Shown in pieces: positions 26,248 through 44,148 of a stretch of 63,037 nucleotides of DNA (the first letter of the stretch is position 1; each line of letters begins with the position of its first letter). Origin of the DNA: Bacteroidetes bacterium ADurb.Bin145 (GTDB lineage Bacteria; Bacteroidota; Bacteroidia; Bacteroidales; VadinHA17); contig MWDJ01000017.1 of assembly GCA_002070505.1 (NCBI GenBank), positions 1-63,037 on the forward strand, in the 5' to 3' direction. The notes beneath the pieces are model-generated. The model was not told the DNA's origin. It made no database searches and saw only the letters and a program-made list of their open reading frames with translations. Both the position numbers and the translations under genes were made by a program.

Positions 26248-26304
26248 AAACGGCGCAACGGTGCAAGGGCGCAATGGCGGAAAGAAGCACAATCGAGATT
26301 CCCA

Positions 26305-26401: not shown

Positions 26402-26442
26402 TGTCAAAATGTCAATATTTCCTCATTGGCAGGTAATTTGCT
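26402..26442 (+). promoter_or_regulatory. sigma-54-like promoter with paired TGTCA boxes upstream of grpE
   Basis: TTGGCAGGTAATTTGCT (26426-26442) has GG-N10-GC, the defining -24/-12 spacing of sigma-54 promoters, and matches the consensus TGGCAC-N5-TTGC closely. Two TGTCA boxes at 26402-26406 and 26410-26414 lie in direct orientation 8 bp apart, and the second ends 13 bp before the -24 GG. The same layout, with the same 13-bp gap, occurs upstream of hsp20 (44049-44088). The grpE ATG is 35 bp after the -12 GC. Assignment to RpoN is inference from the motif. Confidence 0.6.
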
Positions 26443-26475
26443 GTTCAGAGGATATCAATCGATTAATTATAGGTG

Positions 26476-27117
26476 ATGGTTAAAAAGAAAACTCATGACG
26501 AGGCTGACGCCGTGAAGGATAAACACATTGAAACATCTGAAAATAAGGATAATAAAAGCGAAAAGGAGGTTGGCACCGATACAAAGGATGAGTCTGTTAC
26601 TGACAAATCCGGGAAACTCTCTGATAAATCTGCAGAGGATAAGACAGTAACTCCTGACAAAGTTGTCGCTGAAGAAAAGTCAATAGAAGAAAAACTGGCA
26701 GAAATGCAGGATAAATATTTACGGCTTTCTGCCGAATTCGATAATTACAGGAAACGCACTCTCCGGGAGAAGATAGATCTTACGAAATATGCTGCTGAAG
26801 AGATACTTCTGAAGATACTTCCCGTGATGGATGACTTTGAAAGAGCTCTCTCTCATATTGATGTAAGTCAGGATTGTAGTGCGGTTAAAGAGGGACTGGA
26901 TCTTATTTACAGTAAATTCAGTGAATTTCTGAAGCAGCAGGGTGTAAAGGAGGTTGATGCTCTTAATTGTCCTTTTAATTTTGAATTACACGATGCGGTT
27001 GCAAAAATTCCTGTGCAGGAAGAAGAAAAGAAGGGAAAAAATGTGGAAGTCATATTGAAAGGTTATTACCTTAATGAAAAGGTGATCAGACATTCCAAGG
27101 TTGTAGTGGGAGAATAG
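26476..27117 (+). CDS. grpE: nucleotide exchange factor GrpE
   Basis: This 213-residue co-chaperone releases ADP from DnaK. About the first 70 residues are a highly charged, probably disordered Lys/Glu/Asp-rich extension. They are followed by the long coiled coil (EEKLAEMQDKYLRLSAEFDNYRKRT) and the beta domain (VKEVDALNCPFNFELHDAVAKIPV ... VILKGYYLNEKVIRHSKVVVGE). The start is placed at the ATG at 26476 after AGGTG; an in-frame GTG immediately precedes it. It lies 45 bp before dnaJ, and dnaK is not in the window. A sigma-54-like promoter precedes it. Confidence 0.96.
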   Translation: MVKKKTHDEADAVKDKHIETSENKDNKSEKEVGTDTKDESVTDKSGKLSDKSAEDKTVTPDKVVAEEKSIEEKLAEMQDKYLRLSAEFDNYRKRTLREKIDLTKYAAEEILLKILPVMDDFERALSHIDVSQDCSAVKEGLDLIYSKFSEFLKQQGVKEVDALNCPFNFELHDAVAKIPVQEEEKKGKNVEVILKGYYLNEKVIRHSKVVVGE

Positions 27118-27162
27118 GCTAGATACTTGCCTGACAGAAGCATCAGCCAAATAGGATAATAA

Positions 27163-28314
27163 ATGGAAAAAAGAGATTATTACGAAGTACTGGGGGTATC
27201 CAAAAGCGCCACAAAGGAAGAGATAAAGAAAGCTTACAGGAAACAGGCACTAAAGTATCACCCTGACAAGAATCCTGGCAACAAGAAAGCGGAGGAGAAT
27301 TTCAAAGAGGCAGCTGAGGCTTATGAGGTACTCAGCAATGATGAAAAAAGAGCCAGGTATGATCGTTTTGGGCATGCAGGGATGGGTAGTACGGGTAACG
27401 GATACAGTGGCGGTGGGATGACTATGGAAGATATCTTCTCCTCTTTCGGGGATATCTTTGGAGATGCTTTTGGCGGCTTCGGAACTTTTGGCGGCAGCAG
27501 GCGCGGAGGCAGCAGGAGGGTTAACAAAGGTTCCAATCTCAGGGTTAAAGTCAAACTCACTCTTCAGGAGATTACAAACGGTGCTGAAAAGAAAATAAAG
27601 GTCAATAAATATGATACCTGCACCCAATGCGGAGGTTCCGGCGCAGCAGATTCAAACAGTTACTCCACATGTTCAACATGCAGGGGTTCCGGCCATGTGA
27701 CCCGGCTCACAAACACCCTGCTTGGACAGATGCAGACTACTTCAACATGTCCCGCCTGTAACGGTGAAGGGAAGATTATCACAAAGAAATGCACCGCCTG
27801 CTATGGGGAAGGCATTATTCAAAAAGAAGATATAATCAAGATCAATATTCCTGCGGGTGTTGGAAAAGGGATGCAGATGACTGTCAGCGGGAAAGGAAAT
27901 GCGGCCCGGAGAGGAGGTGTCAATGGCGACCTCCTTGTCGTTATTGACGAAGTCGATCATCCGGATCTGATAAGGGAAGGTAATGATCTGATATACAATC
28001 TATTCATTAGTATACCTGATGCCATTCTCGGCACCCATGTCGAAGTACCCACAGTAGATAATAATGTAAAGATAAAAATTGAACCCGGGACCCAACCCGG
28101 CAAGATCCTTAGGCTCAGGGGCAAGGGATTGCCTGAAGTAAACGGTTACGGGAGAGGCGATCTGCTCGTAAATGTAAATGTATGGATACCAAAAAACATT
28201 ACAAGAGATGAAGCCAGAATTATCGAAAAATTTAAGGAATCCGGCTCATTCAGACCCAATCCCGATAAAAACGACAAGGGATTCTTTGAAAGAATGAAAG
28301 GCTATTTTGAATAG
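27163..28314 (+). CDS. dnaJ: chaperone protein DnaJ
   Basis: This is a 383-residue type I J-protein that stimulates the DnaK ATPase and holds unfolded clients. It has the N-terminal J domain ([24 protein letters not shown], with HPD in YHPDKNPG) and a Gly/Phe-rich linker (about 75-125). A zinc domain has four CxxCxGxG-like repeats ([32 protein letters not shown]), followed by the C-terminal substrate-binding beta domains. The length and domain order are normal. It is co-directional with grpE and probably shares its promoter. Confidence 0.97.
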
Positions 28315-28381
28315 AGAACCTCGTAGTAACAACAAGATTTTTAATATCTTTACCAATCTTTAAGATAAATCTAAAATAATT

Positions 28382-29290
28382 ATGCCACTTTTTGAAGCAA
28401 AAAACGTTGTCAAACAGTTCGGCTCTTTTACGGCTCTTGATAACGTAAGTATTTCTGTTCCTGCACAATGCATCTATGGGCTGCTTGGTCCCAATGGTGC
28501 GGGAAAGACTACATTGATCCGGATTATAAACCAGATCACCGGCCCTGATTCGGGAGAACTCTTTATAAATGGGAAGAAACTTACGCCTGATGATGTTCAG
28601 TTCATAGGTTACCTTCCTGAAGAAAGAGGCCTGTACAAAAAAATGAAGGTCGGAGAACAGGCTCTCTACCTGGCCCAGCTTAAGGGACTATCAAAAACGG
28701 AAGCCATGAAGAGACTGAAATACTGGTTCAGGAAACTTGATATAGTCGACTGGTGGGGCAAGAAGGTGGAGGAACTTTCAAAAGGCATGCAGCAAAAAGT
28801 TCAGTTCATCACAACAATCCTTCACGAGCCCTTACTTATAATCTTTGATGAACCTTTTACCGGTTTTGACCCGGTTAATACAAACACTATCAAAAATGAA
28901 ATTCTCTTCCTGAGGGAAAGAGGTGCCACTATAATTTTCTCAACACATAACATGGGGTCCGTTGAAGAACTATGCGATAATATTACACTTATAAACAAGG
29001 CTAAAACAATCCTTGAAGGAAGTGTTGATGAAATAAGAAAGCAATGGGCGGGAAATGAATATGACCTCACACTGAAGGGAGATGTCAGACTGCAAGGCAA
29101 TAATCATTTCAGTGTGTTGGACCAGAAGTCTGAGGATGGGAAAACCTCAGTCAGGATCAAGACCGCCGATAAGGTATCAACAAATGATATCCTGAATTTT
29201 ACTATGAGATCCGGAGAAATAATTGCATTCAATCCGGCTCTTCCATCCATGAACGAAATATTCATCAGGGTTGTTGAATCACGCAACTAA
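28382..29290 (+). CDS. ABC transporter ATP-binding protein (NatA-like)
   Basis: This 302-residue ATPase subunit has Walker A GPNGAGKTT (about 37-45), the signature LSKGMQQKV, Walker B LLIIFDEPF and the switch histidine in FSTHNM. A C-terminal extension of about 90 residues follows the nucleotide-binding domain, as in NatA/YhaQ-type exporters. The partner permease gene starts 27 bp downstream. This class exports ions, drugs or lipids; in Firmicutes NatAB exports sodium, but the substrate here is unknown. Confidence 0.92.
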   Translation: MPLFEAKNVVKQFGSFTALDNVSISVPAQCIYGLLGPNGAGKTTLIRIINQITGPDSGELFINGKKLTPDDVQFIGYLPEERGLYKKMKVGEQALYLAQLKGLSKTEAMKRLKYWFRKLDIVDWWGKKVEELSKGMQQKVQFITTILHEPLLIIFDEPFTGFDPVNTNTIKNEILFLRERGATIIFSTHNMGSVEELCDNITLINKAKTILEGSVDEIRKQWAGNEYDLTLKGDVRLQGNNHFSVLDQKSEDGKTSVRIKTADKVSTNDILNFTMRSGEIIAFNPALPSMNEIFIRVVESRN

Positions 29291-29317
29291 TTTTATCCAA
29301 ACTGAAAATCCCTTAAA

Positions 29318-30685
29318 ATGAGTAAAATATCTGTTATCATAAAGAGAGAATACATCACACGGGTAAGGAAAAAATCATTCATTATAATGACAATCCTGGC
29401 CCCGATACTAATGGCTGCGATAATTATTTTACCTACAGTCTTCATGATGAGTGACAAGGACAAGGACTTCAAGAAAATTGCCGTTATTGAAGATGGGTCG
29501 GATCTTTTCAGGAACGTAATTCCTAATACAAAGGATGCCGAATACGTGTACCTTGAAAATGCCGATATAAACGAACTTAAAAAGAATTTTGAGGCAAAGG
29601 GATATTATGGCATTTTATATATCTCACCTGAACTTGTTAATATACCCAATGCTATCCAACTTATCTCCAAACAAACACCCCCTATCGGCCTGATCGATCA
29701 TATCTCCGGTTCACTTGAAAAAGAGATCGAGCGACAGAAACTTCTTGCCTACAATATACAGAACCTTGATGATATCCTCAAAAATATAAATACCCAGGTC
29801 TCTGTTCAGACTATCAAGATTGATGACACCGGAAAGGTAAAGGAAACTAGTACAGGTATTGCAATGGCGATGGCATATATCGGGGGATTCCTGATGTATA
29901 TGCTTGTGTTCCTGTTCGGATCCCAAGTGATGAGGGGAGTGATTGAAGAAAAAACAAGCAGGGTTGTTGAAGTGATAGTTTCCTCAGTTAAGCCCGTACA
30001 GCTGATGATGGGGAAAATTATAGGCATTGCACTTGTAGGCCTTACGCAGTTCATGATATGGGTCATCCTTACCTTAGGTGTTGTGACATTTGTAAGAAGC
30101 ACAGTTCTTAAAAAGACAGATATTACTGAGATACCCCAAACCATTCCACAGAGCATAATGACTGAAAATCAGCTTCCCGGCGCAACGGCTGAAGCAAGCG
30201 CTGCTGAAATAAACCCTCAGCTGGCTGAATTCTCAAAGATCTTCGAAAGCGCAATGAACCAGGAATGGCTGCTGATAATCCTGGCTTTCATTTTTTACTT
30301 CATTACAGGATACCTGCTGTATGCGTCAGTTTTTGCGGCAATAGGATCTGCAGTAGATAATGAGACAGAGACTCAGCAGTTCATGATGCCTGTGACTATT
30401 CCCATCATCCTTGGCCTGATGGTAGCCGTGGGAACAATGCAGAATCCGGAAAGTTCAATTGCATTCTGGTGTTCGATAATTCCGCTTACGTCTCCTATAG
30501 TCATGATCGCAAGGATCCCTTTTGGAGTCCCTTTGTGGCAGCTTTTACTATCAATGGGATTGATGATCATTACTTTTCTGGCTTTTGTCTGGATGGCCGC
30601 CAAAGTGTACAGAACAGGCATTCTGATGTACGGCAAGAAAACATCCTGGAAAGAGATCTGGAAATGGCTGAAATACAGTGCATAG
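29318..30685 (+). CDS. ABC-2 type transporter permease (NatB-like)
   Basis: This 455-residue membrane subunit has the topology of NatB/YhaP permeases. One N-terminal helix (SFIIMTILAPILMAAIIILP) is followed by a large extracytoplasmic domain (about 45-175) and five or six clustered helices in the C-terminal half. The coupling region GVIEEKTSRVVEVIVSSVKPVQLMMGKIIG is characteristic of the family. It is adjacent to its ATPase gene and ends 56 bp before a response regulator gene. Co-regulation with that regulator is possible but not shown. Confidence 0.9.
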   Translation: MSKISVIIKREYITRVRKKSFIIMTILAPILMAAIIILPTVFMMSDKDKDFKKIAVIEDGSDLFRNVIPNTKDAEYVYLENADINELKKNFEAKGYYGILYISPELVNIPNAIQLISKQTPPIGLIDHISGSLEKEIERQKLLAYNIQNLDDILKNINTQVSVQTIKIDDTGKVKETSTGIAMAMAYIGGFLMYMLVFLFGSQVMRGVIEEKTSRVVEVIVSSVKPVQLMMGKIIGIALVGLTQFMIWVILTLGVVTFVRSTVLKKTDITEIPQTIPQSIMTENQLPGATAEASAAEINPQLAEFSKIFESAMNQEWLLIILAFIFYFITGYLLYASVFAAIGSAVDNETETQQFMMPVTIPIILGLMVAVGTMQNPESSIAFWCSIIPLTSPIVMIARIPFGVPLWQLLLSMGLMIITFLAFVWMAAKVYRTGILMYGKKTSWKEIWKWLKYSA

Positions 30686-30741
30686 ACTATTGAAAGTATC
30701 AGCTGTCGGAAACTTCTGACGATATTAAAACCTGAGCCATA

Positions 30742-31917
30742 ATGTCGAAGATTTTGGTCATTGATGATGAAAGAGCGATCCGGAACACTCTCAAGGATGT
30801 CCTGGAATATGAGAAGTATGAAGTTGACCTTGCTGAAGACGGCCCTTCCGGTCTTGAGCTTTTTTCAGAAAATAAATATGATATAGTCCTGTGTGATATT
30901 AAGATGCAGAAGATGGACGGTATAGAGGTTCTCCAGAAGATAATGGAGATCTCCACTATCACCCCTGTTGTGATGATATCCGGACACGGGAATATCGATA
31001 CTGCTGTAGAAGCTATCAAGAAAGGTGCTTACGACTTTCTGGAGAAGCCACTTGATCTGAACAGGCTCCTGATCACAATCCGTAATGCAATGGATAAATC
31101 ATCACTGATTACCCAGACACAGGTTCTGAGGAATAAGGTCAGTAAGATGTACGAAATAATAGGCGAGTCGGATGCTATTAAGAAAGTGAGGGAAATGATC
31201 GACAGAGTTGCCCCGACTGAAGCCAGGGTGCTGATAACCGGTGCCAATGGAACCGGGAAAGAACTCGTCGCTCATCAGATACACGAAAAAAGCAACAGGG
31301 CAAAAGGTCCTTTCGTCGAGGTTAACTGTGCAGCAATTCCGTCTGAACTGATCGAAAGTGAATTATTCGGGCACGAAAAAGGATCGTTCACCTCAGCAAT
31401 AAAACAGCGGATAGGAAAATTTGAGCAGGCCGACGGAGGAACACTTTTCCTCGATGAAATAGGAGATATGAGCTTATCAGCACAGGCTAAAGTATTGAGG
31501 GCTTTGCAGGAAAACCGTATCACACGGGTCGGATCCGACAAGGACATCCAGGTGAATGTAAGAGTCGTGACAGCCACAAACAAGAACATCAAGAAGGAGA
31601 TCGAGTCTAATAATTTCAGGGAAGATCTTTACCACCGCCTCAGCGTTATTCTTATTCATGTTCCCACACTGAACGAACGGGTAGAAGATATCCCTCTTCT
31701 TGCGGAACATTTTAACTCATTGATCTGCAAAGAATACGGCATGGGTAAGAAGGTAATAAGGAAAGATGCAATAAAAGAACTTCAGAAGATTCAGTGGACC
31801 GGTAACATAAGGGAATTCAGGAATGTTCTTGAAAGGCTGATAATATTGTGCAGGGACGAAATTACGGGAGCCGACGTTCTCGCCTATGCAAGACCTGTCT
31901 CAGGTGGTAATGTATAA
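30742..31917 (+). CDS. NtrC-like response regulator lacking a DNA-binding domain
   Basis: This 391-residue sigma-54 activator-type protein has a receiver domain (residues 1-120; DD at 8-9, phospho-acceptor Asp52, Lys102) joined to an AAA+ domain. The AAA+ motifs are Walker A GANGTGKE at 167-174 and Walker B FLDEIGD at 236-242. The sigma-54-contacting loop is GSFTSA at 214-219 instead of the usual GAFTGA. The chain ends 25 residues after the WTGNIREFRNVLERLI helix, so the Fis-type helix-turn-helix of NtrC is absent. I looked past the stop for a frameshifted domain and saw none. No partner histidine kinase is adjacent. Confidence 0.9.
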   Translation: MSKILVIDDERAIRNTLKDVLEYEKYEVDLAEDGPSGLELFSENKYDIVLCDIKMQKMDGIEVLQKIMEISTITPVVMISGHGNIDTAVEAIKKGAYDFLEKPLDLNRLLITIRNAMDKSSLITQTQVLRNKVSKMYEIIGESDAIKKVREMIDRVAPTEARVLITGANGTGKELVAHQIHEKSNRAKGPFVEVNCAAIPSELIESELFGHEKGSFTSAIKQRIGKFEQADGGTLFLDEIGDMSLSAQAKVLRALQENRITRVGSDKDIQVNVRVVTATNKNIKKEIESNNFREDLYHRLSVILIHVPTLNERVEDIPLLAEHFNSLICKEYGMGKKVIRKDAIKELQKIQWTGNIREFRNVLERLIILCRDEITGADVLAYARPVSGGNV

Positions 31918-32009
31918 CTCATAAGGGTACTTAAAATTATTATCCTGCCCGGTCATACCGAAGCTGGAAATGCCGGCAATAATGCCCTCAGACAAAAACC
32001 TGCATAGAG

Positions 32010-33569
32010 TTATGAATCAACCCGCTTTTTGATCTTAAGGACTTGTCCGACCTTTATTTTCTGGGGATCAGTAATATTATTCAATGTCAGGACCTCAGTG
32101 GTAGTAACGTTGCTGTACATTTTGACGATATCCCAGATTGTGTCTCCAGAACGGACAACATGTGTTACATATTCTGAATCAGGCTCAGAAGTCAGAACCG
32201 GTGCAACCGGAGAGACAGGTACGGCCGTTTTGCCGATAGAGGCCTGTTTTTCAGCAAATGACATTGAATTTATCCTTGAATAATTTTCTGCATTTGCAGG
32301 ATCGACATAAATGACTATCTCCTGTCCTATCCTGATTGTATTACGATAAATATTATTCCAGTACCGGAGATCGGATAATCCAACATGGTACCATTCTGAA
32401 ATAAATCCAAGATTATCTCCTTCCTTCACTGTATAAAGCAGCTTTGTTTTACCTTTTATATCCGGCGGAACGAATGCTGCTCTTGCAGGATCAGCTATTA
32501 GGGTAGCCTTGTCAAGATAGATTTCAGATTTATAGCTTCTTATAGTATCGTTCATATCAATAAAATTGCCCAGATGGTTCAGCGGAAGGGTAAGTGATGA
32601 AGGTTTAGTTGATCCAGGTACAAGGCCGGTCCTGTATTGAGGATTGAGCGCCCTCAGTTCGCCGAGTGACAATCCCATAACCTCTGATATCTGGGTAAGA
32701 TGAATATCCTTGTTCAGCATAATTGTATCAGTAGCAATAGGGAAGTCAATGGGTACAGGCTGGATATTATGTTCCGGGTAATAATTTATTGCATAAGCAG
32801 CTGCAATGAACTGAGGTATGTAACCCCTTGTTTCACGGGGAAGCCTGTAGTAGATCTGCCAGTAATCCTTCCTGTTTCCTGATCTCCTGATAGCTTTGTT
32901 AACATTGCCGGGGCCGCAGTTATAGGCCGCAATGACAAGTATCCAGTCTTTGTAGATATCATAAAGGTCCCTTATATATCTTGCGGCTGCATGTGTGGCC
33001 TTGACCGGATCCCTGCGCTCATCGACAATCGAGTTGATTGTCAGTCCGTAAGACCTTCCTGTACTGTAAATGAACTGCCACAGGCCCGTTGCACCTGACC
33101 TCCTGTTTACTGCATTGGGATTGAGAGCGGATTCAATGACCGCCATATATTTCAGTTCGACTGGAAGTCCATAATAATCAAAGACATCCTCGATCATAGG
33201 GAAATAATAATCTTTCAGTCCCAGCATCACTTTAAACTGAGGCCGTTTCTTTATTGTATAAACATGGATATGGTTCCTGATTATATTGTTATAGTTAAGC
33301 TTTATAATTGAATTGATCTTTGCTATTCTGCTTGTATAAACCGAATCGGGATATTGTATGCCTGTGGTATCATCATATAAAATCCATGGATTATTCTCGA
33401 GAGCTTTTTTAACATACCAGTCATTGACCAGGCTGTCAAGGTCGGTGCTTATCTTTTGGGAATTAATGTCATCCTGCTGTATGATAATTGTGTCTGATAC
33501 CGTAAAAGCACCTGCAAGCTGTGTTGCAAGGAAAAAAAGTACCATCAGTATTCTTATTTTCTTCATCAT
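32010..33569 (-). CDS. mltD: membrane-bound lytic transglycosylase D-like, SLT plus two LysM domains
   Basis: This 519-residue peptidoglycan-cleaving enzyme cuts glycan strands to give 1,6-anhydro-muropeptides. A signal peptide (1-21, ending LAGAF) is followed by an SLT domain. In that domain the catalytic Glu146 lies in MAVIESALNPNAVNRRSGATGLWQF, with the family blocks YNCGPGNVNKAI and YYRLPRETRGYIPQFIAA. Two LysM domains follow (YTVKEGDNLGFISEWY about 385-430 and HVVRSGDTIWDIVKMY about 472-516). Two ATG codons in tandem begin the gene. It is the last of the parA-parB-DUF5683-mltD run, 12 bp after the DUF5683 stop. Confidence 0.93.
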   Translation of the reverse strand: MMKKIRILMVLFFLATQLAGAFTVSDTIIIQQDDINSQKISTDLDSLVNDWYVKKALENNPWILYDDTTGIQYPDSVYTSRIAKINSIIKLNYNNIIRNHIHVYTIKKRPQFKVMLGLKDYYFPMIEDVFDYYGLPVELKYMAVIESALNPNAVNRRSGATGLWQFIYSTGRSYGLTINSIVDERRDPVKATHAAARYIRDLYDIYKDWILVIAAYNCGPGNVNKAIRRSGNRKDYWQIYYRLPRETRGYIPQFIAAAYAINYYPEHNIQPVPIDFPIATDTIMLNKDIHLTQISEVMGLSLGELRALNPQYRTGLVPGSTKPSSLTLPLNHLGNFIDMNDTIRSYKSEIYLDKATLIADPARAAFVPPDIKGKTKLLYTVKEGDNLGFISEWYHVGLSDLRYWNNIYRNTIRIGQEIVIYVDPANAENYSRINSMSFAEKQASIGKTAVPVSPVAPVLTSEPDSEYVTHVVRSGDTIWDIVKMYSNVTTTEVLTLNNITDPQKIKVGQVLKIKKRVDS

Positions 33570-33581
33570 AATTTCAATTAA

Positions 33582-34217
33582 TCAAAAACTAAATTTCAGG
33601 TTTACTGTAAAGCCCGTCAGTGACTGCCCGTATAAAGGCATCTGAACAGGTTCTAATGCCAATCTGAGATTATCGCTGACATCAAAATCCGACAGACTAG
33701 CATCGACATTTGCGTCGAGGACGGTTACGAGCAACCATGCTGCGATGCCAATATACGAAAGATCGCGGTATTTTCTGAAATAATCAACCTGCCTTAACAT
33801 TCTTTCCCTGTACCATTCGGCATTTGATGGATCATAAGTATCGGGGTGCAATACGGGGTCGTATGTTGAAGGATCGGCATTTTTAATAAGAGCCCGGTAT
33901 GAATCTGTTTCCGGTATCTTATCAGTGAAATCCTGATAGGCTTTAATAAAAGTATTATAATTTGTAGAGTTATAATGAATTGCATAAATAATCCCTCCAA
34001 ACCCAGCATAAACGAGTGGGACCTTCCAGTATTTTTTATTATATATCTGTCCCATTCCCGGAAATGCCAGGGCAAGCATTGTTGCTCTCAAAGGATCTTT
34101 CTTTGAGACACTTTTTACAGCGTGGGCAACAGACAGAGTATCCTGAGCATTGATGTTTTTTACTGAACAACCCAGGAGTATTAAAAGAAGCAATGATATT
34201 TTACAGTACGCCTTCAA
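33582..34217 (-). CDS. DUF5683 membrane protein
   Basis: This 211-residue Bacteroidota protein is of the DUF5683 family. An N-terminal hydrophobic signal (LLLLILLGCSVKNINA) could be a lipoprotein signal with Cys17. The conserved block ATMLALAFPGMGQIYNKKYWKVPLVYAGFG is followed by a second hydrophobic stretch (YIGIAAWLLVTVLDANVDASL). The C-terminus LTGFTVNLKFSF resembles an outer-membrane beta-strand ending. No ATG fits the reading frame upstream of the signal sequence, so a TTG start at 34217 is used. It sits between parB and mltD, a conserved order in the phylum. Function is unknown. Confidence 0.82.
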   Translation of the reverse strand: MKAYCKISLLLLILLGCSVKNINAQDTLSVAHAVKSVSKKDPLRATMLALAFPGMGQIYNKKYWKVPLVYAGFGGIIYAIHYNSTNYNTFIKAYQDFTDKIPETDSYRALIKNADPSTYDPVLHPDTYDPSNAEWYRERMLRQVDYFRKYRDLSYIGIAAWLLVTVLDANVDASLSDFDVSDNLRLALEPVQMPLYGQSLTGFTVNLKFSF

Positions 34218-34280
34218 AACACATATCTGCCGGGAGAGAACTCCGGCATTCTGATAACGGCGCGATAAAGATAATATTTT

Positions 34281-35168: not shown

Positions 35169-35172
35169 AATT

Positions 35173-35955: not shown

Positions 35956-36241
35956 TTCTTTACCTCGCTTTTTTAATTGCTTTTGAGCTTCAAATTTACT
36001 ATTAATAGCTCCATGGCCCGGGAAACCCGAAGATGTAATTGTAAACATTTCGTTTGTGGTTTTCAACACTTTATTAACATCACCTCAAATTAACAATCTC
36101 TGTATTGTGCTGATTTATAGATACATATAATACATGACGACTAATAGTTAATAAGTTCTTATTCTAATATTTCTGATTAAAACAGAGGTTCCGGATTCAT
36201 GATTTATTCTCATCTTTATATCAGCGTTAAAATTTATTTAA

Positions 36242-37195
36242 ATGGCATCTGATAAAGTTCGTCCTGAATGGTTTACAATTGTCAATCCGAATGCGGGTAA
36301 TGGCAAGGGGAAAAAGGACTGGAACAGGATAGCAGGACTTTTTGAAAACAAAGGTATCCCGGTTGTTCCAAAGTTCACTGAAAAGAAACTGCAGGCTATC
36401 GAGTTTGCAAGGGATGCAATTGGTGACGGATTCAGAAAAATAATCGCTGTCGGAGGTGACGGTACACTGAATGAAGTGATAAACGGGATTTTCAGTCAGG
36501 AATACTGCCCCGGGAAAGATATTTCAGTAGGTATGATACCTGTAGGTACAGGTAACGACTGGGGAAGAATGTTCGGTATCCCGCTGGTTTATGAAGCTGC
36601 CGTTGATGTAATAAAGCAAAATAAGCTTCTGCTCCACGATATTGGCGTATTAACCTACCACAATGGCAGCGAACAGAATAAAAGATATTTCATAAATATT
36701 GCAGGCCTTGGATTTGAAGCTCTCGTTGTAAGAAAGACCAACAGACAGAAAGACAGGGGAAGAAGCAACCAGACAATTTATTTCTTTAATCTTCTGACAA
36801 GTCTTATTGCCTATAAGAAAACAAATGTGGCTCTGGAAATCGACGGCAGGCAATATTCAGCAAAGATATTTTCAATAAACGTCGGGAACGGCAGATATTG
36901 CGGAGGAGGCATGAGGCAGACACCGGAGGCCCTTCCTGATGACGGTCTTCTTGATATTACAGTTATAAGGGAAATGGGGAGAATAGAAATTATCAAGAAT
37001 CTTAAGATCCTGTATGACGGTACAATCCTCAGTCACCCTAAAGTTGACGGATACCGCAGTAAAAACCTGAAAGTTACATCTGAAGCTATTCTCTATGCTG
37101 AAGCTGATGGTGAATCACTTGGACATACTCCTGTCGAGTTCAGTATTATCCCTGCAGCTGTGAATGTGGTTTATGGCATGAAGATCATTCCGTGA
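36242..37195 (+). CDS. diacylglycerol/lipid kinase family protein
   Basis: This 317-residue lipid kinase is of the DgkB/YegS family with a DAGK catalytic domain. Diagnostic motifs are TIVNPNAGNGKGKKDW (nucleotide-binding start), AVGGDGTLNEVINGI and PVGTGNDWGRMFGIP. The C-terminal beta-sandwich domain includes NGRYCGGGMRQTPEALPDDGLLDI. It phosphorylates diacylglycerol or a related lipid such as a sphingoid base, on the cytoplasmic face of the membrane. Bacteroidota make sphingolipids, so that alternative should be kept in mind. Its 3' end overlaps the convergent glutaminyl cyclase gene by 11 bp. Confidence 0.9.
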   Translation: MASDKVRPEWFTIVNPNAGNGKGKKDWNRIAGLFENKGIPVVPKFTEKKLQAIEFARDAIGDGFRKIIAVGGDGTLNEVINGIFSQEYCPGKDISVGMIPVGTGNDWGRMFGIPLVYEAAVDVIKQNKLLLHDIGVLTYHNGSEQNKRYFINIAGLGFEALVVRKTNRQKDRGRSNQTIYFFNLLTSLIAYKKTNVALEIDGRQYSAKIFSINVGNGRYCGGGMRQTPEALPDDGLLDITVIREMGRIEIIKNLKILYDGTILSHPKVDGYRSKNLKVTSEAILYAEADGESLGHTPVEFSIIPAAVNVVYGMKIIP

Positions 37196-38303
37196 TCTTT
37201 ATCTCGAAAAGCCTGGGCCAGTTCTTGCCTGTAACGAATATCCTTTTATTGTCTTTATCGTAAGCTATTCCGTTCAGAACATTTTCCCTTGTGTCTACCT
37301 GCGGATCATTAAGAATACCCTGAAGATCAATATAGGCTATCACTTTCCCCGAACCGGGATCTATCCTGGCGATAAGATCTGTGTTCCAGATGTTTGCCCA
37401 GATCTCGCCATTGATATATTCAAGCTCATTGAGCTGATCAACTTTCTTCTCATTATCATAGACCTCTCTCCTTGAAACAACATTGAACATTTCAGGGTCG
37501 ATGAAATATAAAGTATTTGTCCCGTCACTCATTACGATCTTGTCGTCCAGAGTGGTCAGTCCCCACCCCTGTGTCTGATAATAGATCTTGTTGATCTGCC
37601 TGAATGTTGACCTGTCATATACAAAGCCGACCTGGGATGTCCAGGTTACCTGATAAATACGATCCTGGTACAATGTTATCCCCTCACCGAAAAGAGAAGG
37701 GTCAAGGTTCAGCTGCCTCAGTATCCTTCCTGTTGAAAGTTCAACTTCACGCAGGTTTGAACCCGTCTCACCAGTCCCTTCATATAAAAGGCCGTCATAA
37801 TAAAAAAGACCCTGGGTAAATGCGTTACGGTCGTGAGGAAAAGTATTGATTATCCTGTATCCATTTCTTTTCGGTACAATGTTCGAAAGGATTAATACAG
37901 AACGAGTAACAGTTGTCCGTGCCTTTCCGTTCCTATAGGCAATAACCCTTAATGACTTCCTCCCGGTTGTTGTATTTAGCAGGGGAGCAACCGGAAATTC
38001 CCATGGAGATGATTTGACTGATCCTGCTCTTGATCCATTGAAGAATATCACTACAGAATCAGGTAAATTGCCGCTGCCCCTCGGAGTTATAACCACCTGG
38101 ATCTGGCTTCCCAGTCTGAATTCTGAATTTTCCGAGGGGGAAATAATGCTTATCAGCTGAACTTCCTCATCACCCGGACTTATAGGATCCGGGTTAATTT
38201 CCTGTCCGGTTTTTTGTCCGGGACGACCCGAGCAGGAAATAGTCCAGATAATAAGCAATATCGTAAATAGTGATAGCAGGTATCTCATATAATTATTTTT
38301 CAT
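37185..38303 (-). CDS. glutaminyl-peptide cyclotransferase, plant-type lipoprotein
   Basis: This 372-residue protein is a lipoprotein (signal ending IIWTISCSG) with an Ig-like linker (about 50-130). The C-terminal beta-propeller is of the plant/bacterial glutaminyl cyclase family, which converts N-terminal Gln to pyroglutamate. Family blocks are TFPHDRNAFTQGLFYYDGLLYEGTGETG, RIYQVTWTSQVGFVYDR, LEYINGEIWANIWNTDLIARIDP and NGIAYDKDNKRIFVTGKNW. In Bacteroidota such enzymes act in the periplasm on exported proteins trimmed to an N-terminal glutamine. The gene starts 11 bp inside the end of the HAD gene and overlaps the lipid kinase gene at its 3' end. Confidence 0.9.
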   Translation of the reverse strand: MKNNYMRYLLSLFTILLIIWTISCSGRPGQKTGQEINPDPISPGDEEVQLISIISPSENSEFRLGSQIQVVITPRGSGNLPDSVVIFFNGSRAGSVKSSPWEFPVAPLLNTTTGRKSLRVIAYRNGKARTTVTRSVLILSNIVPKRNGYRIINTFPHDRNAFTQGLFYYDGLLYEGTGETGSNLREVELSTGRILRQLNLDPSLFGEGITLYQDRIYQVTWTSQVGFVYDRSTFRQINKIYYQTQGWGLTTLDDKIVMSDGTNTLYFIDPEMFNVVSRREVYDNEKKVDQLNELEYINGEIWANIWNTDLIARIDPGSGKVIAYIDLQGILNDPQVDTRENVLNGIAYDKDNKRIFVTGKNWPRLFEIKITE

Positions 38304-38745
38304 TTTTTCGTTTTTTCCCGAAGAAGAACCTTTTTATTTTGTTAATCCTTGCTGCTGCGATCCGTTTTTCAGTCTCGATCTGGAGCAGTTCATAGGGGAA
38401 CAGTATCTGCCAAGCCTCGCTCCATCCAGGAAAGCCTCCGATATTCTTATCATCAATATAAATATCCGCGTCGATCTTCCGGCTTACAGTCTCATCGACT
38501 ATTTCTTCAGGATAGTTCTTGTTCACTGCATAGAATTCAATACCGTTCTTCCTGCAATATTCAACAGCATCCTCAAGCTCTTTCCCCGTACGGAAAGTCC
38601 ATAATATCAGCTTAGCGCCTTTTTTCTCGAGCTCCCTGAGTGTCTGGAAAGCAAATAATTTTTCTTTCCCGATCTCCGGGTACATGTGCTCAACTATTGT
38701 ACCATCAAAATCTACTGCGATTTTTATATTTGTAAGATCAGTCAT
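38293..38745 (-). CDS. small HAD-superfamily hydrolase (BT0820-like)
   Basis: This 150-residue HAD-fold protein has motif I IAVDFDGTIVE (nucleophile Asp and DxD pattern), motif II as LWTFRTG, and motif III/IV in DIYIDDKNIGG. It lacks a cap domain. It resembles the structurally known Bacteroides protein BT0820 and polynucleotide-kinase phosphatase-like members; the substrate is unknown. It lies upstream of the glutaminyl cyclase gene with an 11-bp overlap, and a TAAATTTG -7 box precedes it. Confidence 0.87.
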   Translation of the reverse strand: MTDLTNIKIAVDFDGTIVEHMYPEIGKEKLFAFQTLRELEKKGAKLILWTFRTGKELEDAVEYCRKNGIEFYAVNKNYPEEIVDETVSRKIDADIYIDDKNIGGFPGWSEAWQILFPYELLQIETEKRIAAARINKIKRFFFGKKRKNEK

Positions 38746-38765
38746 CGGCTGTTTCTATGAGAGGC

Positions 38766-38812
38766 CAAATTTAACCAAAATGGCATTATTACTGAAATTT
38801 ATCTTAATTTTG
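38766..38812. promoter_or_regulatory. divergent promoters between the HAD gene and pssA
   Basis: Two exact TAnnTTTG boxes lie back to back: TAAATTTG on the reverse strand (38766-38773, 21 bp before the HAD ATG) and TAATTTTG on the forward strand (38805-38812, 27 bp before the pssA ATG). I do not see strong TTTG -33 boxes at 19-21 bp for either, so this rests on the -7 boxes and their position. Confidence 0.5.
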
Positions 38813-38838
38813 CTATCCTTCCGACATTTTCATTCAAA

Positions 38839-39561
38839 ATGAAGCATATTCCAAATTTCATTACATGTCTTAACCTCGCAGCTGGTTTCATATCGCTTGT
38901 TTTTGCTGTCAACGGAGATGTGGTAACTGCATCATGGCTTATCATTGCCGCAATGATCTTTGACTGGTTTGACGGTTTCTCCGCCCGCCTTCTGAAAGCA
39001 TATTCGGACATAGGAAAAGAACTTGATTCCCTGGCTGATGCGGTTAGTTTCGGTATTGCACCGGCATTGATTATGTACCATTTTCTTGGCTCTTCACTAT
39101 CACTCACCTGGCCCATGATTACTAATGCCAGCGGGGCCGGCGATAAGCTGATCCTTTTTTCTCCGGTGATAATGTGTGTCTGTGCTGTTTTGCGGCTTGC
39201 TGTCTTCAATACAGATGAATCACAGGTCAAGTCGTTCAAAGGCCTTCCGACTCCTGCAAATGCTCTTGCTGTTATTTCACTTGTTATTGCCGCTCACTAT
39301 TCCGACAGAATAGTATTCAAAAATATTCTTGAATCCACACCCGTGCTGCTGATGCTCACCGTCGCTCTTTCCCTATTAATGGTTAGCAGGATACCCCTTA
39401 TCTCATTGAAGATTGCAAATCTGAAACTGAAAGGCAACGAAGGAAGATATCTGCTGATCATCCTTGTCGCGGCAGCATTTGTTTTCCTCGGGATCGGAGC
39501 AATAACCCTTATAATCCCCTTTTATTTAATTGTTTCAATTATCTCCCCGCTGTTTCGATGA
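38839..39561 (+). CDS. pssA: CDP-diacylglycerol--serine O-phosphatidyltransferase
   Basis: This 240-residue integral membrane enzyme of the CDP-alcohol phosphotransferase family makes phosphatidylserine from CDP-diacylglycerol and serine. The signature D(G)2AR-x8-G-x3-D-x3-D is present as WFDGFSARLLKAYSDIGKELDSLADAVSFG. Seven to eight membrane segments follow. Together with cdsA and psd elsewhere in the window (46560-47402 and 45864-46520), it completes the route from phosphatidic acid to phosphatidylethanolamine. Confidence 0.94.
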   Translation: MKHIPNFITCLNLAAGFISLVFAVNGDVVTASWLIIAAMIFDWFDGFSARLLKAYSDIGKELDSLADAVSFGIAPALIMYHFLGSSLSLTWPMITNASGAGDKLILFSPVIMCVCAVLRLAVFNTDESQVKSFKGLPTPANALAVISLVIAAHYSDRIVFKNILESTPVLLMLTVALSLLMVSRIPLISLKIANLKLKGNEGRYLLIILVAAAFVFLGIGAITLIIPFYLIVSIISPLFR

Positions 39562-39602
39562 TCTCAATATTTTTCAGTCAGACCTAATTAAGAGAAGGGG
39601 GA

Positions 39603-39719
39603 TCATTTTTTTTCTTTGTACCTTTTTTCATACCAGGCAAGAGCGATACTTACTGCAAACCAGCTGATAAGAATCAGGGCCGGCCATAAAAGATATTTTA
39701 GAATCTCTGATATATACAT
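39603..39719 (-). CDS. 38-residue single-pass membrane protein, candidate small cytochrome bd subunit (CydX/CydS-like)
   Basis: This short open frame directly follows cydB (48-bp gap, same strand). It reads as a typical small oxidase subunit: MYISEILKYLLWP, then a hydrophobic helix ALILISWFAVSIALAWYE, then a charged tail KRYKEKK. The ATG is preceded by AAAGAAGAAAA, a weak purine-rich ribosome site. Known CydX proteins (about 37 residues in E. coli) have one helix with a conserved Glu soon after it. Here a Trp-Tyr-Glu follows the helix. The sequence does not align clearly with E. coli CydX, so the assignment rests on position, size and topology. Confidence 0.7.
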   Translation of the reverse strand: MYISEILKYLLWPALILISWFAVSIALAWYEKRYKEKK

Positions 39720-39767
39720 TTTTCTTCTTTAATTTCCTGATAATTTAACTTCAGACCTGTCTTATAA

Positions 39768-40898
39768 TCAATAAAGATGCTCCTCTTCTTTCAGTTCTGT
39801 ATGTGTGATCTTTTTTCTGTTTATCTCTTTCCATGCATACCAGATATATGCAATCACAAACGGTATAATAAAGGAAACATACATCATGGTTTTCAGGGTG
39901 AAGAAACTGGATGAAGCGTTCCTTATAGTAAGAGAACTTGCCGGATCGAATGACGAAGGGTAAAATGCAGTCCCGTTGAATCCGGCTATCAGGAACAGTG
40001 CAAAAACTGCCATTATTGTTCCCGAACCCGTAAACCATATCCCCTTCCTTGAATGCCTGAATATTGTCACTCCGATCCCATAAAGGACAGCGGTCACTCC
40101 TGTAAGAAAAATTATCATCACTAATGGCATTTCAAGGAAATTAATAAGATACTTGAACTTCTGAGTAGAAACTATCCCGAACTCCCCATTAACCTGGAAT
40201 CCATCCGAAATCAGTAATGTCGTAAGAAAGAACAGAAAGAAAACGAGAAAAGATACTGAATTGGTTATAAGCTTTCTTAGTGATCTTTCATAAAGGTCTT
40301 CATCTTCAACTGAGTTGACAAGGTATAATAATCCATTCATCCTTGTCAGGAAGAGAACTGAGAGCCCCAGGGAAAGATTTCTTGCATCGAGCAAGGCCTC
40401 GAGTCCGTGCCAGTGGTTAGCCCAGGAAACCTGGTTCATATTGTTAAGGCTGAATTGTGAACCTGTAAAGAAAGTTCCTACTGCTGTTCCGATCAGGAAC
40501 GGACCTAACGCACCGTTAATGAAGAGAAATATATCGAATGTTTTTCCCCCGAAAACATTAGAAGGCTTGGACCTGTACTCATAGGCTATTGCCTGAATGA
40601 TGAAGCTGAAAAGTATTGTCATCCAAACCCAGTAAGCACCTCCGAAGCTTGAAGCATAAAAAAGAGGAAATGAGGCAAAGAAAGCCCCTCCGAAGGTAAC
40701 AAGAGTAGTAAAGGTGAACTCCCATTTTCTTCCCAGGGCATTTATAATCATTGTTTTTTGTGTTTCGCCGGCGGGAAGAGAAAAAATAAATGACTGGCCA
40801 CCCTGAACAAACATCAGGAATACAAGCAGACTTGCAAGAAGGGATATAATAACCCACCAATAATGCTGAAGAAAAAGATATGATATCATTGTTGTCAT
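39768..40898 (-). CDS. cydB: cytochrome bd ubiquinol oxidase subunit II
   Basis: This 376-residue membrane subunit partners with CydA. Eight or nine hydrophobic segments are visible, with family features LFLQHYWWVIISLLASLLVFLMFVQGGQS near the start, RKWEFTFTTLVTFGGAFFASFPLFYAS and a C-terminal TMMYVSFIIPFVIAYIWYAWKEINRKK. The reading frame is open to 41072, but the start is set at the ATG at 40898. An AGGAGG lies 7 bp upstream of it, and the ATGA overlaps the cydA stop by four bases. Confidence 0.93.
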   Translation of the reverse strand: MTTMISYLFLQHYWWVIISLLASLLVFLMFVQGGQSFIFSLPAGETQKTMIINALGRKWEFTFTTLVTFGGAFFASFPLFYASSFGGAYWVWMTILFSFIIQAIAYEYRSKPSNVFGGKTFDIFLFINGALGPFLIGTAVGTFFTGSQFSLNNMNQVSWANHWHGLEALLDARNLSLGLSVLFLTRMNGLLYLVNSVEDEDLYERSLRKLITNSVSFLVFFLFFLTTLLISDGFQVNGEFGIVSTQKFKYLINFLEMPLVMIIFLTGVTAVLYGIGVTIFRHSRKGIWFTGSGTIMAVFALFLIAGFNGTAFYPSSFDPASSLTIRNASSSFFTLKTMMYVSFIIPFVIAYIWYAWKEINRKKITHTELKEEEHLY

Positions 40899-42469
40899 TT
40901 TATTTCCTCCTGATGTTTTGGCCCTGATTTGATCTGCTTCAGCATAATCGATACCTCTGCAGTCAGAAGGGCTGTGAAAAGAACCGCAAAGAGTATGAAA
41001 GTCGTTATCACTGACCCGGCTTTGATCTGCGAAACGGCAGCTGAAACCGGCATCAGATCCTGGATAATCCACGGCTGTCTTCCCATTTCAGCAAGAACCC
41101 ATCCCAGTTCACTTGTAAGATATACAAGAGGTATTGATAGCAGAGCCACCCACAGGAACCACCTGTTCTTATGAAGATTGTCCCTCAGTACCAGGAAAAC
41201 AGAAAGCGCGCAGAGTGCTATGAAAAAGAATCCCAGCATAACCATCAGGTGGAACGAATAGAATGCCACAGGAACGTTGGGGATGGCATCCTCAGGAGAT
41301 TTCAGAAATGCATACCCGAAGTAGCTGAAATAATCATTTATGAAATCCTTCCCGCTGAAGATATTTTTTATCTCATCTGCCCTGGCATGATTATTATTCT
41401 TTTTAGCTTCCTTGTATTCATTCAGAAGGTCCCTTGCATATCTCCCTCTTATCATTTTCTGTTCCACGCTGATAAACTGCCTGTCCTGCGATGAGCCAAG
41501 GACAAGATCCTTAATCCCCGGCACATAAGTGTCTTTGTCTCCACCAGTCATAACAGAAAGAAATCCGGGTATTTCAATCTTCATTACAAAATCCCTGACT
41601 TTTTTTTCTCCTATCGTTTCATCTGATTTTTTCAGCAGTCCGATGGCTACCAGTCCGGCATTGCTCTTCCCCTCATAAAGGGCTTCGAATGCAGCAAATT
41701 TGACAGGTTGCACTTTTGCCAGTGTCCGGGCTGATGAATCACCTGTCAGGGCAACAGCGAGCGATGACAGGAAGCCGAATATTCCTGCAATAAGGATGCT
41801 TCTTTTTGCTAGCCATTCTTCTCTTTTCTTTATAAGGTACCAGGAACTGACTCCGATAACGAAAATTGATGCAAGCAGGAAGCCCGAAGTTATTGTGTGC
41901 ATGAATTTATCCACAGCAACCGGGTTAAAGAGGATGGCCCAGAAATCAACCATTTCATTTCTGGCGGTCTCCGGATTGAACACCATACCAACAGGATTCT
42001 GCATCCATGCATTTGCCACGAGGATCCATAAAGCCGAAAGATTTGCACCTATTGCAACAAGCCAGGTTGAAATTAGATGGAATCTCCTGCTTACCTTGTT
42101 CCATCCGAAGAACATAACTGCAACGAAAGTCGATTCAAGGAAAAATGCCAGAATCCCTTCTATGGCCAGGGGCGCACCAAATATATCTCCGACAAACCAG
42201 GAATAGTTCGACCAGTTTGTACCGAATTCAAATTCCAGGATGATACCTGTTGCTACCCCAATCGCGAAGTTTATCCCGAAAAGGGTCATCCAGAATTTTG
42301 TTGCCCTCTTCCATTCCTCACGTCCCGTCTTCACATAAAGAGTCTCCATTATGGCAATTATGAATGACAAACCAAGTGTAAGAGGGACAAAGAACCAGTG
42401 ATAGATGGCGGTTAGGGCAAATTGAGCACGTGACCAGTCAACTAATGACAGATCTAAATTTTCAATCAT
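40895..42469 (-). CDS. cydA: cytochrome bd ubiquinol oxidase subunit I
   Basis: This 524-residue subunit binds haems b558, b595 and d and the quinol, giving oxygen reduction at high affinity. Haem ligands are visible as His24 (TAIYHWFF), the His in DKFMHTITSG and the Met in FHLMVMLGFF. The quinol loop is long (about residues 245-390, starting FAAFEALYEGK), so it belongs to the long Q-loop class. The GRQPWIIQDLMPVSAAVS block near the C-terminus is conserved. The gene overlaps both neighbours: the DUF4492 gene by 8 bp upstream and cydB by 4 bp downstream. Confidence 0.96.
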   Translation of the reverse strand: MIENLDLSLVDWSRAQFALTAIYHWFFVPLTLGLSFIIAIMETLYVKTGREEWKRATKFWMTLFGINFAIGVATGIILEFEFGTNWSNYSWFVGDIFGAPLAIEGILAFFLESTFVAVMFFGWNKVSRRFHLISTWLVAIGANLSALWILVANAWMQNPVGMVFNPETARNEMVDFWAILFNPVAVDKFMHTITSGFLLASIFVIGVSSWYLIKKREEWLAKRSILIAGIFGFLSSLAVALTGDSSARTLAKVQPVKFAAFEALYEGKSNAGLVAIGLLKKSDETIGEKKVRDFVMKIEIPGFLSVMTGGDKDTYVPGIKDLVLGSSQDRQFISVEQKMIRGRYARDLLNEYKEAKKNNNHARADEIKNIFSGKDFINDYFSYFGYAFLKSPEDAIPNVPVAFYSFHLMVMLGFFFIALCALSVFLVLRDNLHKNRWFLWVALLSIPLVYLTSELGWVLAEMGRQPWIIQDLMPVSAAVSQIKAGSVITTFILFAVLFTALLTAEVSIMLKQIKSGPKHQEEIK

Positions 42470-42728
42470 ATATATTATTTATGGAGGTTATCTGATCAAG
42501 TACATAATCGCTTCGACGGGCATCATCTTTAAAGTTCTTCTTGAGAAAATCAGGGAAAAAGAATATTCTCAGGACAATAAAAATAATAACGATTTTAATA
42601 ATAATAATGATCCACACTCTTCTTCCCCACCACGACATGTCCCTGAAGCCGTCATAATAGAACCTGTACACGCTCCTGATTTTCCGGAAAATCCTGTCCA
42701 TCCAAGTCGGAAGTAATATTACTAACAT
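42462..42728 (-). CDS. DUF4492 protein, upstream partner of cytochrome bd
   Basis: This 88-residue protein has one membrane segment (WIIIIIKIVIIFIVLRIFFFP). The conserved N-terminal pattern IRSVYRFYYDGFRDM and WWGRR match DUF4492, a family found next to cydA in Bacteroidota. The ATG at 42728 gives the longest product; an internal ATG at 42701 (MDRIFRKIR) is closer to the usual family start, and no ribosome site decides between them. It overlaps cydA by 8 bp. A role in assembly or stability of the oxidase is likely by context but unproven. Confidence 0.85.
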   Translation of the reverse strand: MLVILLPTWMDRIFRKIRSVYRFYYDGFRDMSWWGRRVWIIIIIKIVIIFIVLRIFFFPDFLKKNFKDDARRSDYVLDQITSINNIYD

Positions 42729-42759
42729 TCAATTAAAAAGTACGATCCTTTCTGTCCGG

Positions 42760-43965
42760 TTATTCTCTTTCTCCTGAAAGAGAGCCATTCCCCTCCTTCC
42801 CGGAGTGTCCAATATCTTCCTCTTCATTTGAGGCTGAGATAGTTGCTCCGATATCAGCCGGTGTCAGCCCGGAGGTAATTTTCTGGACAGCTTTAAAGTT
42901 GTAGAAGAACTCCCGGGCAAAAACACGGATAACTGTATAGCCGGGAATTCCAAGTATCATCCCCGGGATACCTGCTGCAAAACCTGCTGCAAGAACAACT
43001 ACAAAAACCTCCAGGGGATGAGCCCTGACACTGTTTGAAAAAATGGCTGGCTGTAAAATCATGTTGTCAATCAACTGGGTTATTGCCACAACTATAGACA
43101 TATAGTATATCAATGGAATAACTACCGTCTTGAAATCCATATTGATATGCGATGCAACACCCATAGTGACTGCAATAAAAAATCCCAGCCATGGACCGAC
43201 ATAGGGTATAATATTCAGTATGCCTATTATCAGTCCGAGTACAAGAGCCTGCTGGAAATCGATCCCTATTATTATCATTCCAATATCTATAAGGATCATA
43301 ACACATGTGCTCTCAATAAGTATCCCGATGAAATATCTTGTAAGAAGGTTTTTTATTGAATACAGTGCCCTGGTAAAGTTGTCGGTATATTTATCGGGTA
43401 CCCACATTAAGATCGATTCAAAGAAAAGATGCTGGTCCTTAAGGAAGAAAAAGGTAATAAATGAGATCGAGAATATCGCAACAGCGAAATTACCAAGCAC
43501 TGCGAACACCGAACCCAGGAAGTTCTGGATAACGTTAATATTAAGAACTTCTGCAACCTTCCCTGAAAAATAATCCTTTAGCGACATATCCTGAGGCAGA
43601 TCCTTGTTCAGTGCCCGGAAGATACTCTCTATCCTGTTCAGGGGATCCTCAATCAGCTGAACTACTTTAGAACTATCAATTGTGGAAAAATATGAGATCT
43701 GCTTTGTCAGCAAAGGGACGAAAATGACAAAGAACAGGATTATGACGCCCCACAAGACAAGCAGAGCAAGCAATGCACTTAACGGTACAGGAAATGAGAA
43801 TTTACCAATCCTGATCTTTGAAAAGAGATCTACAAGCGGACGTCCTACAATTGAAAGGACGCCTGAGACAAGAATATAAACAACAATATTCCTGAAATAC
43901 CATGCACATGCGAGAAGCAGAAGAACTCCCGCAACAATTAGTATATTCCTGAAGGTTGCTTTCAT
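42760..43965 (-). CDS. AI-2E/PerM-family membrane protein
   Basis: This 401-residue polytopic protein of the PerM/TqsA family has hydrophobic segments at the N-terminus (RNILIVAGVLLLLACAWYF) and clustered in residues about 150-350. Family blocks are SFITFFFLKD, LLTRYFIGILIESTCVMILIDIG and LIIGILNIIPYVGPWLGFF, plus the Pro/Gly-rich HPLEVFVVVLAAGFAAGIPGMILGIPGY. Members transport diverse solutes (AI-2, sodium/proton); the function here is unknown. A hydrophilic tail rich in Gly/Glu/Ser ends the chain. It is divergent from hsp20. Confidence 0.9.
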   Translation of the reverse strand: MKATFRNILIVAGVLLLLACAWYFRNIVVYILVSGVLSIVGRPLVDLFSKIRIGKFSFPVPLSALLALLVLWGVIILFFVIFVPLLTKQISYFSTIDSSKVVQLIEDPLNRIESIFRALNKDLPQDMSLKDYFSGKVAEVLNINVIQNFLGSVFAVLGNFAVAIFSISFITFFFLKDQHLFFESILMWVPDKYTDNFTRALYSIKNLLTRYFIGILIESTCVMILIDIGMIIIGIDFQQALVLGLIIGILNIIPYVGPWLGFFIAVTMGVASHINMDFKTVVIPLIYYMSIVVAITQLIDNMILQPAIFSNSVRAHPLEVFVVVLAAGFAAGIPGMILGIPGYTVIRVFAREFFYNFKAVQKITSGLTPADIGATISASNEEEDIGHSGKEGNGSLSGERE

Positions 43966-44016
43966 ATCCGGTTTTCCTTATACAAACCTAACTTTTTTTT
44001 TCCGATTTACATAACC

Positions 44017-44088
44017 TGTCATTTTGTCTGCTAATTTGTCATTTACTATGACATATTGACACATTTTGTGTTTTGGAACAGAAGTTGA
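44017..44088 (+). promoter_or_regulatory. sigma-54-like promoter with a symmetric TGTCA/TGACA array upstream of hsp20
   Basis: Boxes are TGTCA (44017), TGTCT (44025), TGTCA (44037), TGACA (44049) and TGACA (44057), with start-to-start distances of 8, 12, 12 and 8 bp, a symmetric pattern. The last box ends 13 bp before TTTTGGAACAGAAGTTGA, which has GG-N10-GA (GG at 44075-44076), a -24/-12-like element with A for C at -12. The 8-bp box spacing and the 13-bp gap repeat the grpE promoter. The hsp20 ATG at 44149 is about 60 bp downstream. Confidence 0.55.
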
Positions 44089-44148
44089 AAAGATAGATAT
44101 GTAAAGATTAAAATTAATGTAAAACTTAAAATAATGGAGGACAAAACT

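Follow-up and report, generated by a model that had tools for sequence, protein, structure and literature searches.

Sigma-54 control of chaperone genes has been described in Bacteroidota. In the accessible part of a study with mapped transcription starts, groES-groEL, lon, dnaK, grpE-dnaJ, htpG, clpB, and others of Flavobacterium psychrophilum stand under the sigma-54 motif SM4 [PMC9723704]; three PF00158 proteins are noted there, none of them assigned, and Table 2 lists a probable sigma-54-dependent regulator, THC0290_0733, located 5' of lptE under another promoter motif. A survey, in the portion available to us, finds that the predicted sigma-54 targets of Bacteroidota and Planctomycetota are enriched in chaperones, and gives as sigma-54-dependent grpE of both Bacteroides thetaiotaomicron and F. 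psychrophilum, as well as groES of the former [PMC12316311]. Chaperone induction in Bacteroidia (Bacteroides, Prevotella, Flavobacterium, and kin) is nevertheless, to our knowledge, poorly understood. Here, a 13-bp dyad of TGTCA-type boxes is described that precedes the -24/-12 element of chaperone genes in a stretch of 63,037 nucleotides from Bacteroidetes bacterium ADurb.Bin145 (contig MWDJ01000017.1; the whole stretch is called the window below) and in its relatives, together with an enhancer-binding protein, EBP2, that most likely reads it, as judged from comparative sequence analysis.

Compared with the F. psychrophilum promoters, the same chaperone genes and the same -24/-12 type are concerned; dyad, spacing, and regulator are not described in the accessible parts of PMC9723704 and PMC12316311. 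HrcA/CIRCE and sigma-32 serve the same target genes and differ in operator and sigma factor. Sites of the NtrC/LuxO type consist of a short palindrome bound by a dimeric Fis-type helix-turn-helix, as is proposed here for the dyad, and lie roughly 100 bp upstream, whereas the dyad lies 11–13 bp from the TGG of the -24/-12 element and is common to the whole chaperone set. The LuxO site, TTGCA-N3-TGCAA, shares the 13-bp geometry of the dyad. PspF, the phage-shock activator, has no N-terminal sensor domain, like EBP2; its stress role and restraining partner are a guess when carried over to EBP2, which scores 267.7 bits against the NCBIfam equivalog cut-off of 443.55 and differs by a conserved middle segment and by its presumed targets, cytosolic chaperones. 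Chaperone induction in Bacteroidia thus seems to follow a different path from the textbook cases.

Searches of the open-licence PMC literature turned up no description of the dyad, nor of EBP2 as the protein that reads it. For B. thetaiotaomicron, the main text of PMC12596196 contains no RpoN, sigma-54, groE, grpE, or chaperon; PMC10994844 contains no RpoN, groES, or grpE, and its mentions of sigma factors or chaperones, in the 12 of 16 places read, do not concern sigma-54. Within that literature, control by sigma-54 has been described; what appears to be new is the operator with its geometry, and the candidate regulator.

Boxes in the window and in its source genome

A first-pass annotation of the window had described paired TGTCA boxes followed by a -24/-12 element at both grpE and hsp20, which direct reading bears out (Table 1). 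Its spacing of 13 bp holds when counted to GG, and becomes 12 bp at both promoters when counted to TGG (from 26427 at grpE); the box starts at hsp20 are, as it had stated, 8, 12, 12, and 8 bp apart. Both elements carry GG and a G near -12, the -12 dinucleotide being GC at grpE and GA at hsp20. The TGTCA-N3-TGTCA pair (two copies vs. 0.28 expected) is weak evidence in the window alone, because two copies were also reached in 5/100 shuffles. Strings of the -24/-12 type taken by themselves showed no excess in the window (16 found vs. 14.0 expected); the strength of the evidence comes from the combination of box and -24/-12 element and from the relatives.

In the source genome (3.95 Mb, 92.5% complete, the window being one contig), TGTCA-N3-TGTCA occurs 11 times, compared with three times for the reversed-pattern control. 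Of these, seven are within long reading frames and four outside them; the four are found 5' of grpE-dnaJ, hsp20, clpB, and groES-groEL, and each is followed by a -24/-12 element. At hsp20, clpB, and groES, a distal pair ends 44 bp and a second site 12 bp before TGG, the latter degenerate in clpB and groES (6/8 letters); the step of 32 bp between dyads amounts to about three helical turns. At grpE, a second site at 44 bp was not found (2/8 letters match). In htpG of the same genome, TGACTATTTGTCA ends 11 bp before TGGCACATCTTTTGAA. RpoN is encoded in 31/31 genomes searched, the source genome among them.

Position and symmetry of the dyad in relatives

The position of the dyad was analyzed in 92 regions 5' of grpE, groES, htpG, and clpB from 23 genomes of the window's class (families f1–f12; no clpB from G041, two groES from G037). 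The best -24/-12 element was picked by score alone, with a sigma-54 consensus and weights set by hand, and TGNCA-N3-TGNCA was then scored at every distance. At 11–13 bp from TGG, at least six of the eight fixed letters were present in 61/92 promoters (200 first-order shuffles: mean 1.3, largest 5), and at least seven in 45/92 (mean 0.13, largest 2). Other offset triples from 24 on gave a mean of 4.0, even with the smaller peaks at 44 bp (10/92) and 54 bp (7/92) included; counts at 4–5 and 20–21 bp are inflated because a site has one box in common with its own copy displaced by 8 bp. By gene, the dyad at 11–13 bp was found in 22/23 htpG, 18/23 grpE, 12/22 clpB, and 9/24 groES promoters, with at least one dyad-bearing chaperone promoter in each of the 23 genomes. 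When the eight genomes matching in the phylum scan (see below) are excluded, 35 of the 59 promoters from the remaining 15 pass. In other classes, a single one of 14 grpE/groES promoters passes, and at a poor -24/-12 element; at three other-class promoters with a strong -24/-12 element (L216, L218, L225), the dyad was not found.

In the strong sites (n = 45), box 1 has A, C, or T at its centre and never G, and box 2 has A, G, or T there and never C. The two boxes together make up a palindrome of 13 bp, TGHCA-N3-TGDCA, which is its own reverse complement; versions TGTCA..TGACA and TGACA..TGTCA are found at the same promoter position. The palindrome explains the pairs in either orientation as well as those of mixed orientation, and the direct-repeat orientation of the boxes is not essential. 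A site of this form fits the Fis-type domain of sigma-54 activators, which is dimeric. Like an enhancer, the dyad is a palindromic site upstream of the promoter; the varying distances of an enhancer were not seen for the proximal dyad (11–13 bp in 61/92, with some copies at 44 or 54 bp). It is called enhancer-like here, and not a classical enhancer, because its place is nearly fixed. An activator site of almost constant position relative to the polymerase is suggested, unlike the usual picture of sigma-54 activators.

In a scan of 296 genomes of the phylum with TGWCA-N3-TGWCA-N12-TGG-N8-TTGC, 22 genomes matched, with one site each (reversed control: 0). All 22 belong to the window's class (22/73 class genomes vs. 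0/223 of other classes), and all sites lie 5' of chaperone genes (grpE, 20; htpG, 2). A GTDB-wide scan (one genome per species; slightly stricter pattern requiring TGGCA and TTGC and so biased towards grpE of Flavobacteriaceae) gave at least 118 stretches. Among the matches listed, all 118 have Bacteroidota titles (some placed by genus), and 115 of the 116 readable sites are at chaperone genes: grpE, 101; dnaK, 6; clpB, 4; htpG, 2; hsp20, 1; groES-groEL, 1 (dnaK called by N-terminal motif, groES-groEL by match to GroEL). The other two, at the edge of the stored stretch, were unreadable.

The expected enrichment upstream of chaperone genes in relatives is thus found in the phylum and in the GTDB-wide scan, nearly all matches being at chaperones. 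Both inferences of the first-pass annotation are supported. Chaperone genes would indeed be run by RpoN, which is encoded, with starts at sigma-54 motifs in a relative, in the accessible part of PMC9723704. A dedicated TGTCA-box system is supported by the chaperone specificity and nearly fixed place of the box, and is refined to a palindrome, for which the enhancer-binding protein encoded in the window (EBP1, see below) is an unlikely reader.

EBP2 as candidate reader, and alternatives

Five enhancer-binding proteins (PF00158) score above 200 bits in the source genome. EBP2 has the attributes of this family (PF00158 AAA+ domain, GAFTGA-type loop, Fis-type helix-turn-helix); its ATPase is near the N-terminus, without a sensor domain, and is followed by a conserved middle segment and the helix-turn-helix, in which GISERTLYRK is invariant (15/15). 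The middle segment, ER-ILYK-LF-M-D---LK (residues about 281–300; L214:4775-6016 and orthologs), matches no Pfam domain above cut-off and might be where a regulator docks. The EBP2 gene lies upstream of groES-groEL, separated from them by lptE and secG (gene names assigned by eye), and is within 5 kb 5' of groES in 15/23 class genomes; by synteny, THC0290_0733, as placed in the available part of PMC9723704, is the putative EBP2 of F. psychrophilum. EBP2 is the single match at E ≤ 1e-100 in 23/23 class genomes (610–734 bits); the best score among 41 other genomes is 495 bits. In three class genomes, G029, G041, and G281, PF00158 was matched twice at E ≤ 1e-30, by EBP2 and by an EBP1 without helix-turn-helix; the dyad stands at 3/4, 2/3, and 2/4 of their chaperone promoters, respectively. 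EBP2 is favoured as reader because it is the sole enhancer-binding protein with a DNA-binding domain found in these three.

EBP1, the enhancer-binding protein nearest to the grpE boxes, consists of a receiver and an ATPase domain. With Pfam at E ≤ 1, no DNA-binding domain was found in the window's EBP1 or in the copies of G029, G041, and G281; the window's EBP1 was rejected as box reader for this reason. EBP1 was matched in 21/23 class genomes. A helix-turn-helix was not seen in its tail in 19 of these 21 (by eye; window, G029, G041, and G281 by Pfam), and a helix-turn-helix-like tail is kept in G002, G080, and three relatives of other classes (by eye). Because of these retained tails, the DNA-binding domain of EBP1 was probably lost within the class. 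In many copies (window, L314–L334), GAFTSA or GSFTSA replaces GAFTGA. As a marker of the class, EBP1 was discarded, relatives outside the class reaching 608 bits vs. 624–731 inside.

From the computed site, its symmetry, spacing, and gene specificity, and from the presence of RpoN and EBP2, we infer that the dyad probably marks a class-wide sigma-54 heat-shock regulon of Bacteroidia, in which EBP2 would bind the dyad and activate transcription upon a stress signal. Sigma-54 RNA polymerase would wait in a closed state on the -24/-12 element. An EBP2 dimer would bind the dyad beside it (spanning roughly -51 to -39 with the first base of TGG taken as -26), and a second dimer the distal dyad, where such a dyad exists, about three helical turns upstream; the dimers would then assemble the ATPase ring and open the promoter. 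Since EBP2 has no sensor domain, it is likely held by a partner; stress would free it, perhaps from a chaperone bound to the middle segment, giving feedback. One operator and one candidate activator make the proposal testable, and the motif could serve regulon prediction in very many genomes.

Several points weigh against this reading. In G026, of another class, a relative of EBP2 scores 495 bits over positions 6–419 of a profile of 420, and groES and grpE there (L218, L225) have good -24/-12 elements without a dyad; the box would then be confined to the class. EBP2 and dyad are both present in 23/23 genomes, and no lineage of loss among them tests the link. Elimination was done at E ≤ 1e-30, which a very divergent enhancer-binding protein could escape, and candidate readers were drawn from enhancer-binding proteins only. 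Just 9/24 groES and 12/22 clpB promoters pass the simple dyad test, in part because the hand-made sigma-54 score may choose the wrong -24/-12 element. The dyad also lies nearer to -24 than textbook enhancers, where, as the first-pass annotation had allowed, a repressor would work as well.

Such a repressor, dedicated and not of the enhancer-binding type, could block sigma-54 polymerase from the dyad until heat releases it, with an activator bound elsewhere or acting from solution (EBP1). The site directly upstream of -24 would suit it, and the lack of a DNA-binding domain in EBP1 of most class genomes would mean that promoter specificity comes from something else. We consider this unlikely: sigma-54 promoters need an activator, EBP2 with its DNA-binding domain is encoded in 23/23 genomes, and the 32-bp phasing between the paired dyads of hsp20, clpB, and groES fits cooperative binding of an activator. 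Activation by EBP2 is favoured over repression because of that need and of the constant presence of EBP2. Alternatively, the dyad could be read by another enhancer-binding protein of the source genome (C23, C39, or C116), considering the five PF00158 proteins above 200 bits and the helix-turn-helix in those at C23 and C116; this appears distinctly improbable, as G029, G041, and G281 carry dyads with EBP2 and an EBP1 devoid of DNA-binding domain alone at E ≤ 1e-30. That base composition produced the boxes, or that they arose by chance at two promoters, could be read from the 5/100 shuffles reaching the two copies of the window; it is refuted by the own-genome, phylum, GTDB-wide, and shuffle tests and has next to no probability.

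A more speculative and rather unlikely reading is a split switch in which EBP2 (DNA binding, no sensor) and EBP1 (receiver, no DNA binding) would co-assemble on the dyad next to the polymerase throughout the class, and into which large phages and at least one operon for cyclic oligonucleotide-based antiphage signalling (CBASS) would plug by having dyad and -24/-12 element 5' of their own genes. EBP1 would, in some lineages, be made from the chaperone operon. An obligatory partnership is weakened by G230 and G238, in which EBP1 was not found at E ≤ 1e-150 and EBP2 was, with dyads at 2/4 promoters each.

Features of the window, phages, and a possible defence locus

Feature coordinates are collected in Table 1, start codons being the first in frame. 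The genes from grpE to EBP1 likely form one operon, because the intergenic gaps are 27–67 bp. Short direct repeats of the type CTTCAACG lie at 26300–26340, just 5' of the grpE promoter.

Table 1 Promoter elements and genes at the grpE and hsp20 loci of the window. EBP1, enhancer-binding protein 1.
Feature	Position	Strand	Remark
grpE proximal dyad TGTCAAAATGTCA	26402..26414	+	TGTCA at 26402-26406 and 26410-26414, read directly
grpE-dnaJ -24/-12 element TGGCAGGTAATTTGCT	26427..26442	+	From sequence and sigma-54 consensus; RpoN encoded
grpE	26485..27117	+	PF01025 in scanned part; listed frame from 26473 (GTG)
dnaJ	27163..28314	+	Downstream of grpE
ABC transporter ATP-binding protein	28382..29290	+	Likely same operon, from gaps
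ABC-2 permease	29318..30685	+	Likely same operon
EBP1 (receiver and sigma-54 AAA+ domain; DNA-binding domain not found)	30742..31917	+	Likely in grpE-dnaJ operon
hsp20 distal dyad TGTCATTTTGTCT	44017..44029	+	TGTCA at 44017-44021, TGTCT at 44025-44029; ends 44 bp before TGG
Lone TGTCA box between hsp20 dyads	44037..44041	+	17-bp inverted repeat with 44049-44053
hsp20 proximal dyad TGACATATTGACA	44049..44061	+	TGACA at 44049-44053 and 44057-44061
hsp20 -24/-12 element TGGAACAGAAGTTGAA	44074..44089	+	Read directly
hsp20	44134..44571	+	

With a looser pattern, 26 stretches were obtained in viral contigs, a number that by estimate chance alone could give; many look like chance. Viral proteins were scanned with Pfam for L340, L359, L346, L347, L339, and L352, and the rest assigned by near identity. 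Dyad and -24/-12 element precede hsp20 in L340:1288-1845, L355:8689-9246 (same protein as L340), and L359:8358-8923, on viral contigs of 106–413 kb. These contigs may, from their promoter sequences, borrow the host heat-shock switch, and the dyad thereby points to phages that may do so. The same promoter precedes dnaK on viral contigs in L346:7687-10883, followed there by a dnaJ-like frame (by eye), and in L347:428-2365, which may be host DNA; it also precedes a protein with tandem UVR motifs in L339:8197-8696, L341, L345, and L352:1374-1875. L339, L341, and L345 each have a further exact dyad, starting 42 bp 5' of the first. Phage genes adjoin L339 (terminase) and L340 (topoisomerase II, thymidylate synthase). 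In the phage collection, no named phage matched Hsp20 of L340 or the UVR protein of L352 at 1e-5.

The sole non-chaperone gene among the 116 readable matches listed in the GTDB-wide scan is L052:1148-2996. In this Taibaiella metagenome-assembled genome, the promoter lies 5' of a CBASS-type cyclase (SMODS) and an S-4TM effector; it is possibly a defence operon placed on the heat-shock switch, or else a chance match.

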